From Pseudomonadota bacterium (lineage in GTDB: Bacteria; Pseudomonadota; Gammaproteobacteria; Burkholderiales; Burkholderiaceae_E), in assembly GCA_029779435.1 (NCBI GenBank), contig JAKPAM010000047.1, positions 1 through 64,000 on the forward strand: a stretch of DNA of 64,000 bases, in the 5' to 3' direction. Of this stretch, positions 52,369-64,000 are shown in pieces. The first letter of the stretch is position 1. The number at the start of each line of letters is the position of its first letter. Under the pieces are notes generated by a model. It ran no database searches. It saw only the letters and a program-made list of their open reading frames with translations, and was not told where the DNA came from. Made by a program: the position numbers and the translations under genes.

Positions 52369-52456
52369 TGGGTCCGATGTGCGGTGGCTGCCTGCCCGCC
52401 GTTCCGCCGATCAGGTCTTGCGGCGGGGGTTCGGTCTTAGCGTGAACAGGACGACA

Positions 52457-62267: not shown

Positions 62268-62558
62268 ATGACGTTCTCTCCGTCCCGCGTTTGGGTGATT
62301 GCCGCCTCGCTGGCCTGCGTCGCCGCCCCGGCGTTGGCCGGCCCCGGCGCCGCCAAGGAAGCCGTGCAGGCACGCCCCGGCCAATCGATCGAAGCCAGCG
62401 CGCGTGAGCGCGCGCGCGAACTGAACCACGACAGCGCGCTGCGCGGCGCCGGCCAGGCGAAGGCGGCGCATGCCGAGATGGCGCGGGGCCAGGCCAGCAC
62501 GGGCGGGATGGTGCCGGCCTCGGCGGCCGCCCCGCAGGCCACCGGCAAGAGCCGCTAA
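62268..62558 (+). CDS. Small exported hypothetical protein
   Basis: Signal peptide VIAASLACVAAPALAGPG; 97 aa. Confidence 0.6.
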   Translation: MTFSPSRVWVIAASLACVAAPALAGPGAAKEAVQARPGQSIEASARERARELNHDSALRGAGQAKAAHAEMARGQASTGGMVPASAAAPQATGKSR

Positions 62559-62574
62559 GGACGCGGACACGAGG

Positions 62575-63513
62575 ATGCCGTCGATGCTTGAGTCGTTGTC
62601 GTCCGGTCGCGTGCTCCGCGCGATCGTGTGGGTCTGCGTGCTGGCCGGCGTCGCGCCGGCGGTGCATGCGCAGGCCGGTTTCGCGTCTCCCGAAGCCGCC
62701 GCGCAGGCGCTGGTCGATGCGATCGCGACCACCGATGCGTCGGCGGTCGAGAAAGTCCTGGGCAAGGACGCGAAGCGGCTGGTGCCGGTCGGTGTCGACG
62801 ATGCGACGCTGCGCGCCGATACGCTGCGCTTCCTGTCGGCGTGGTCCGAAGGACATCGGATCGTCGAGACGGGCGACGGCTGGGCCCATCTGGACGTGGG
62901 CCGCGACCACTGGCGGTTTCCGGTGCCGCTCGCGCGTCGCGCCGGCGCGTCGGCCGATGCAGCGTGGGCGTTCGACACGAAGGCCGGCGAGAACGTGCTG
63001 CGGCTGCGGCGCATCGGCCGCAACGAGTTGGCGACGATGTACAGCCTGCTCGACTATGTCGACGCGCAGCAGTATTACCGCGAAGTGCGCATCAAGGCCG
63101 GGCAGTCGCCCGAATTCGCCAGCAAGCTGTACAGCGCGCCGGGCCAGCGCGACGGCCTGTACTGGGACAAGCGGCCCGGCTGGCCCGACAGCCCGCTGGG
63201 GCCATTGACCGCGAGCATGGGCGAGAAGGTCACCGAGGGCGACGCGTTCTTCGGCTATCGCTACAAGCCGCTGGAAGGGCAGGGGCCGCACGCGAAGGAT
63301 GGCGCGAAGGCATATCGCGTCAAGGGGCGGCTGGTCGAGGGCTTCGCGATGATCGCGTGGCCGGCGCGCTACGGCGACACGGGCGTGATGACGTTCATCG
63401 TCAACCAGGACGGCAAGATCTATCAGCGCAACCTGGGTCCGCGCACGGCCGCGATCGCCGCGGCGATCCGAACGTTCAACCCCGAAGGCGGGTGGGAGCC
63501 GGCGCGGCCCTAG
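62575..63513 (+). CDS. DUF2950 family exported protein
   Basis: FASPEAAAQALVDAIATTDASAVEKVLGKDAKRLV, YYREVRIKAGQSPEFASKLYSAPGQRDGLYW, FFGYRYKPLEGQGPHAKDGAKAY, MTFIVNQDGKIYQRNLG. Confidence 0.9.
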   Translation: MPSMLESLSSGRVLRAIVWVCVLAGVAPAVHAQAGFASPEAAAQALVDAIATTDASAVEKVLGKDAKRLVPVGVDDATLRADTLRFLSAWSEGHRIVETGDGWAHLDVGRDHWRFPVPLARRAGASADAAWAFDTKAGENVLRLRRIGRNELATMYSLLDYVDAQQYYREVRIKAGQSPEFASKLYSAPGQRDGLYWDKRPGWPDSPLGPLTASMGEKVTEGDAFFGYRYKPLEGQGPHAKDGAKAYRVKGRLVEGFAMIAWPARYGDTGVMTFIVNQDGKIYQRNLGPRTAAIAAAIRTFNPEGGWEPARP

Positions 63514-63780
63514 GGCCTTTTAACGCTAAGATCGCCCCCGCGCCGAGGGGCGTCAAGCGCTGTGGCTAGGCACGGGCGAAGTGGCGTACCCGAGGTACGT
63601 AATGAGCCTGCAACGACGCCACAGCGCTTGACGCCCCTTGGCCCGAAGGGTGAAGCCCTGTTCGAGCCCGCCGCCGCGTTGCAAATGCTCGCCATAGCCC
63701 CGCTATGGCTGTGCTTTGCGCCTTGCTGCAGGCTCGAACAGGGCTTCACGCGGGGGCGATCTTAGCGTTAACAGGCCCTA
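63511..63780. repeat. Nested inverted-repeat element, 32-bp outer arms enclosing two long hairpins
   Basis: Outer arms 63511-63542 / 63749-63780 (31/32 complementary); inner hairpins 63546-63566/63618-63638 (21 bp perfect) and 63651-63668/63731-63748 (18 bp). Confidence 0.93.
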
Positions 63781-63993
63781 GGCTTGGCCGGGTCGATCGG
63801 ACCGGCCGGACCCGCCATCGGCCGGCGGGGCCGATTCGAAGCGGCCCGCGTCGCGGTTCTTGCGCACCGCATTCCACGGCCATGTCCGGCCGTTCATCGC
63901 GACGTAGACGCCCGGCGATGCGTGCGTGGCCGCGGCGATCGCATAGCCGAGGTTGAACATCGCATCGGAACGCGCGACGCGGTAAGGGACCAT
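63778..63993 (-). CDS. Hypothetical protein C-terminus, may continue past the right window edge
   Basis: ORF open toward the edge: FNLGYAIAAATHASPGVYVAMNGRTWPWNAVRKNRDAGRFESA; TAG stop at 63778. Confidence 0.4.
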   Translation of the reverse strand: MVPYRVARSDAMFNLGYAIAAATHASPGVYVAMNGRTWPWNAVRKNRDAGRFESAPPADGGSGRSDRPGQA

Positions 63994-64000
63994 CGCCCCG

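Follow-up and report, generated by a model that had tools for sequence, protein, structure and literature searches.

A probable MITE-like foldback element with a multi-branched fold between two convergent genes

The window, which is the whole stretch of 64,000 nucleotides that was analysed, ends in a convergent gene pair, a DUF2950 gene on the plus strand (62470..63513; PF11453, E 8.6e-95) and the 3′ part of an asparaginase gene on the minus strand (63778..64000, continuing beyond the window; PF00710, E 1.6e-23), separated by a set of nested inverted repeats at 63,509-63,782. Both genes stop at the edges of this structure. The PF11453 match ends four amino acids before the DUF2950 stop codon, TAG at 63511-63513, which is completed by the first base of the intervening element, and CTA at 63778-63780 is the stop of the minus-strand asparaginase gene. 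A reading made previously from the sequence alone (the sequence-only reading) had described the interval 63,511-63,780 as a repeat filling a convergent junction from TAG to TAG, and the identities and end points of the two genes bear this out. The element proper, GGGCC...GGCCC, as delimited by sequence, folding and homologues, occupies 63513..63778 (266 bp) and has no coding sequence of its own, no element-encoded gene being found among the listed reading frames. It is bordered on the left by a TA (63511..63512), which together with the element's first base makes up the DUF2950 stop, and on the right by a second TA (63779..63780), part of the CTA (TAG) at which the facing gene stops; we take the two to be a presumed target-site duplication on the basis of empty sites at three other loci, described below.

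The nested repeats consist of outer arms enclosing two long hairpins with inner loop hairpins. An inverted-repeat search returned outer arms of 34 nt that are 97% complementary (63509-63542/63749-63782), within which the left (63513..63542, plus strand) and right (63749..63778, minus strand) terminal inverted repeats of the element lie; the outer arm includes the hexamer GTTAAC. Hairpin 1 (63543..63641, plus strand) has a stem of 28 nt, 93% complementary (63539-63566/63618-63645), and hairpin 2 (63651..63748, plus strand) a stem of 25 nt, 92% complementary (63650-63674/63725-63749). These values agree with the 32-bp arms (31 of 32 positions complementary) and with the two inner hairpins (63546/63638 and 63651/63748) that had been claimed from the letters, and the loop hairpins claimed inside both long hairpins are likewise present. 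Hairpin 2 carries a conserved tip, CGTTGCAAATSCTCGC-stem-loop-CTGYGSTTTGCGCC (63670..63730, plus strand), which recurs across the order (a match to our tip model R1; alignment A3, 70 distinct tips), and the tip of hairpin 1 (about 63567-63617) is related to it in the opposite orientation. Between both long hairpins is a mini-hairpin that the sequence-only reading had not mentioned, CCC-GAA-GGG (63642-63650, plus strand), whose CCCNNNGGG pattern is kept in most relatives and which we describe for the architecture in general as CCC-NNN-GGG. The junction is therefore four-way rather than three-way, being made up of the outer arms, hairpin 1, the mini-hairpin and hairpin 2. The predicted folding energy of the element is −121.1 kcal/mol as DNA (z −17.5) and −210.2 kcal/mol as RNA (z −19.6), values equalled by none of 200 dinucleotide shuffles in either case.

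The element is dispersed in its own genome and in those of relatives. A BLAST search of the own genome with a 274-bp query gave 77 matches. Several of its contigs break off within the element, as is usual where an assembly meets a repeat, and the arm core gave 61 matches at three or fewer mismatches where the reversed control gave 0. Within the host's family the element is carried by 21 of 74 genomes, in 5 of 16 genera; in one of these, G088, at least 17 full-length copies could be aligned, with a median pairwise identity of 96.3% and flanks that are mostly unrelated. The BLAST comparison with host genome and relatives, as proposed in the sequence-only reading, thus identified a multi-copy family in place of the single-copy sequence devoid of compensatory changes that the reading had named as the contrary case. 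Partial forms also occur in the own genome, namely arms only (L027), arms with hairpin 2 (L006, L007) and decayed ends. One probable decayed end lies in the window itself, at 52432..52452 on the minus strand, with three mismatches to the arm. The suggestion that the junction harbours the full-length version of ends seen at 15.2 and 52.4 kb is accordingly plausible for the second of these positions and weak for the first, where the match is limited to CGCTAAGA and scattered flanking bases. Searches of phages and viral contigs gave no match to the element, and in the plasmid search the tip was the sole part matched, in Cupriavidus, Variovorax and Mitsuaria. Two copies in genome G005 (L069, L072) contain homopolymer C/G runs, probably assembly or sequencing errors at a strong hairpin.

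Three G088 copies could be set against empty counterparts. At the first locus the empty site of G075 reads ..CC-TA-TTGCGGG and the filled site ..CG-TA[GGG..CCC]TA-CTGCGGG; at the second the empty sites of G075, G078 and G081 read ..TTC-TA-GCCGG and the filled site TTC-TA[GGG..CCC]T-CGCC, and at both loci the insertion boundary is exact. At the third locus a gene ends in TGA in relatives where G088 reads CGA-TA[GGG..CCC]TA-AGCG; insertion into a TAA stop, turned TAG, would give this arrangement, the TAA ancestor being our reconstruction. Judged from these alignments of filled and empty sites, the three loci show that the element family inserts precisely at TA, which is duplicated. Among 54 elements without an abutting IS110 element, the base to the left is T in 39 and the base to the right A in 33, often as CT...AG, against a T frequency of 0.156; some element flanks are not TA. 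At the locus that is empty in G075, G078 and G081, an apparent decayed partial copy (L220) was also seen in G084, at the same site.

Insertion at TA has a direct consequence for gene ends. Since the first base of the element is G, the duplicated TA followed by it always reads as a TAG stop, and both genes of the window would thereby have kept a TAG stop. When flanking frames that read toward an element were followed by a simple heuristic, 16 of 36 terminated precisely at the edge TAG. From the geometry of the locus, with both genes ending at the element, the target in the window was probably a CTAG in which the DUF2950 and asparaginase stops overlapped; no empty DUF2950-asparaginase junction was found in relatives, the two genes not being neighbours in the other genera searched. 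If this is right, insertion at TA by an element beginning with G remakes the TAG stop and would be harmless at gene ends.

We examined whether the fold is kept as the sequence changes in an alignment of 34 full-length copies from several genera, in which 109 pairs were predicted. Standard pairs account for 96.7% (calculated over 14 representatives below 95% identity), whereas slid controls pair at 34-40%, and two-sided changes occur in 70 of the 109 pairs, which is the compensatory change that the sequence-only reading had suggested looking for. A copy from another family of the order (L266) is 270 bp long and can be aligned over its full length, interrupted by few small gaps, its ends, junction and tips kept and its stems changed. 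Another family is also represented by G097, in which elements of ~271 bp (L253, L251, L254) fold into the same four-way layout; for two further copies of this genome (L250, L255) the minimum-energy fold is a single long hairpin with both tips pairing with each other, so that not every copy has the four-way layout as its predicted optimum. Taken together, these alignments and predicted folds suggest that a four-way layout at about 270 bp is kept while most letters differ, across genera and families of the order.

A conserved fold could be selected at the level of RNA, the element being a bidirectional terminator or structured RNA that spread secondarily. The very stable RNA fold, the position between convergent genes and the two-sided changes would all be expected of such an element. 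Selection on a one-strand RNA is, however, expected to tolerate G-U over A-C, and the three long stems contain 20 G-U against 16 A-C, while the variable part of the tip stem contains 2 against 10 in 490 cells. The conserved part of tip 2 does have 33 G-U against 4 A-C, which speaks for RNA, but the structure there was chosen with G-U allowed. In one copy (L138) hairpin 1 has an unchanged stem and a tip that runs in the opposite orientation to that of other copies. The lack of G-U bias in the stems, together with this inverted tip, favours DNA over one-strand RNA. Moreover, there is no U-tract at the ends of the element, the single weak terminator-like hit, at an internal hairpin tip, compares with 0.4 expected by chance, and 0 Rfam matches above the gathering score were obtained in the window. 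We therefore consider selection as RNA unlikely, and we find no support for the earlier proposal that the element is primarily a bidirectional terminator or structured RNA; it may still have an incidental effect on transcripts.

The two-sided changes themselves could instead reflect template-switch correction of a quasi-palindrome rather than structural selection, an explanation that we regard as a serious possibility though not the probable one. It accounts for arms that change together within one genome (in G088, AGGGCC..GGCCCT versus AGGGCG..CGCCCT) and for the near absence of G-T intermediates. Template switching alone predicts neither the conserved unpaired bases of the tip (columns 17, 21 and 44) nor the length and layout kept across families. 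The conserved unpaired bases and fixed layout suggest that correction is not the whole story, and it can act together with a MITE-like origin.

The tip extends well beyond this element family. A model (R1) built from 13 sequences detected it in 29 of 121 genera of the order (39 of the 249 genomes sampled). Across 70 distinct tips 95.4% of cells pair, with two-sided changes in 12 of 17 pairs (0 of 500 shuffles), and the unpaired bases at columns 17, 21 and 44 are conserved in more than 90%. Both tips of the G097 elements match the model, on opposite strands. Where they were read, tips sit in palindromes with different ends, many of them TA-flanked (GGGCCTGTT, GAGCCTGTT, GGGTCTGTTTGCA, GTGTAGTGTTTCAC, GAACGTGTTTACG, GGGAAACGCTGAAC), and on Burkholderiales plasmids they are located between genes. 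A second, single-hairpin element family with ends AGAACCTGTGAACG (L022, L024, L025, L073, L075) has the same tip, and in genome G255 Neisseria-type uptake sequences (TTCAGACGGC) occur near tip-bearing elements (L249, L256-L260). On the strength of these uptake sequences and of the plasmid hosts, we take the order to be Burkholderiales as GTDB defines it. The folding of palindromes that have extrahelical bases, and the GTTAAC of the arm, also recall integron-type attC recombination sites scattered through the genome. The elements lie outside cassette arrays and between unrelated genes, with near-perfect arms of 30 bp and a TA duplication, which makes this reading scarcely credible. We tentatively propose, as a possibility about which we remain doubtful, that the tip is a transferable unit of DNA structure. 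A factor of this order would recognise its hairpin in extruded or single-stranded form, several unrelated TA-targeting element families would have acquired it, and the four-way fold would be a DNA architecture under selection, its geometry fixed at about 270 bp. If so, many intergenic palindromes in one order (those of the 39 among 249 sampled genomes) would constitute one superfamily defined by a shared tip, with a DNA fold retained as the letters change. The present element would then be a tractable system in which to ask whether selection acts on the cruciform or single-stranded shape of DNA in mobile elements.

Two related tips inverted within one element, with conserved unpaired bases, also resemble REPINs and REP hairpins. 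On this reading the element would be of REP/REPIN type, its inverted hairpin pair recognised as single-stranded DNA and moved by a RAYT, a Y1 tyrosine transposase. A search for Y1_Tnp (PF01797) in four genomes with many copies (G000, G088, G076, G078) gave no match. REPs, for their part, are not characterised by long terminal inverted repeats, by TA duplication or by a size of 270 bp, and mobilisation of this kind is in our judgement very unlikely. To find an autonomous copy, in which the same ends would enclose a transposase, we looked in the drafts G088, G078, G076 and G005 for arms paired at a distance of more than 400 bp; none was found, the arm pairs of G088, G078 and G005 all being short. 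G000 and G088 are 84% and 88% complete, so that absence of an autonomous copy is not proven. The 3.7-kb arm pair of G076 (L146) was rejected as an autonomous element; it comprises two decayed element ends around a single host gene, an apparent housekeeping gene that is by translation indolepyruvate ferredoxin oxidoreductase-like and not a transposase. The transposases of the IS630 (PF13358) and DDE_Tnp_1 (PF01609) types whose ends were checked were also set aside as candidate mobilisers, their detected terminal repeats being different. The GRGCCTGTT-type ends and YTAR target recall IS5-family elements, which we treat as a lead.

Insertion sequences do occur at the element ends. Near-identical copies of an IS110-family element (Transposase_20, PF02371, E 2.6e-8) abut the end of five G088 copies at the same position (L107, L113, L135, L137, L138), which suggests that this element targets the end of the foldback element site-specifically. 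Two insertion sequences of DDE_Tnp_1 type lie at the CTAG of element ends, in G088 (L200) and G005 (L191).

In conclusion, the structure in the window is very probably a single copy of a MITE-like foldback transposable element, non-autonomous and about 266 bp long. Like a MITE, it is short and without a transposase gene, with terminal inverted repeats of 30-34 nt that are 97% complementary, TA duplication with empty sites, and dispersed similar copies; no autonomous partner with matching ends was found in the draft genomes. The 'structured non-autonomous mobile repeat' of the sequence-only reading is upheld by these dispersed copies with unrelated flanks, by the empty sites and TA duplication, by the lack of an open reading frame and by the compensatory changes. 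In the mechanism that we envisage, a DDE transposase acting in trans would recognise the arms, cut at TA and mobilise the element, the remainder would fold as DNA, either as a cruciform or as a single strand exposed by replication, into the four-way structure, and the two related tips may serve many such element families of the order as a module for recognition or protection. Searches of the open-access literature for the tip and arm strings and for related repeats returned no description, and in that literature the combination of a conserved multi-branched fold with a tip common to element families with different ends is apparently undescribed.

Several known repeats offer comparisons. The Correia/NEMIS elements of Neisseria are short, non-coding and dispersed, with terminal inverted repeats and TA ends, and their transcripts form stem-loops (PMC2229807, PMC2649163). 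Other bacterial MITEs, ERIC/IRU among them, are intergenic with terminal inverted repeats, and several have TA termini (PMC2229807, PMC10969869). Our element resembles Correia/NEMIS in its short size, non-coding nature, terminal inverted repeats, TA ends and dispersal, and a text search for putative Correia core strings gave no match. Correia/NEMIS elements have one inverted-repeat pair with a short core, and we know of no two-hairpin four-way layout among them, nor, to our knowledge, do ERIC/IRU and other MITEs have a conserved multi-branched architecture with tips common to unrelated end types. RUP of Streptococcus pneumoniae is a non-autonomous element with a TA target that is thought to be moved in trans by IS630-Spn1 (PMC2229807); RUP is 107 bp long with 9-bp terminal repeats, whereas no matching insertion sequence was found for the present element. 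REPINs of the REP-RAYT system are inverted pairs of related hairpins, intergenic and present in many copies (PMC3116915, PMC2817692), in contrast to which our element, at 270 bp, has terminal inverted repeats and a TA duplication, and no RAYT was found in its main carriers. Insertion sequences of the IS110, IS4 and IS5 families are known to target REPs (PMC1525189), and in this the two kinds of repeat are alike, both REPs and the present element serving as targets of insertion sequences.
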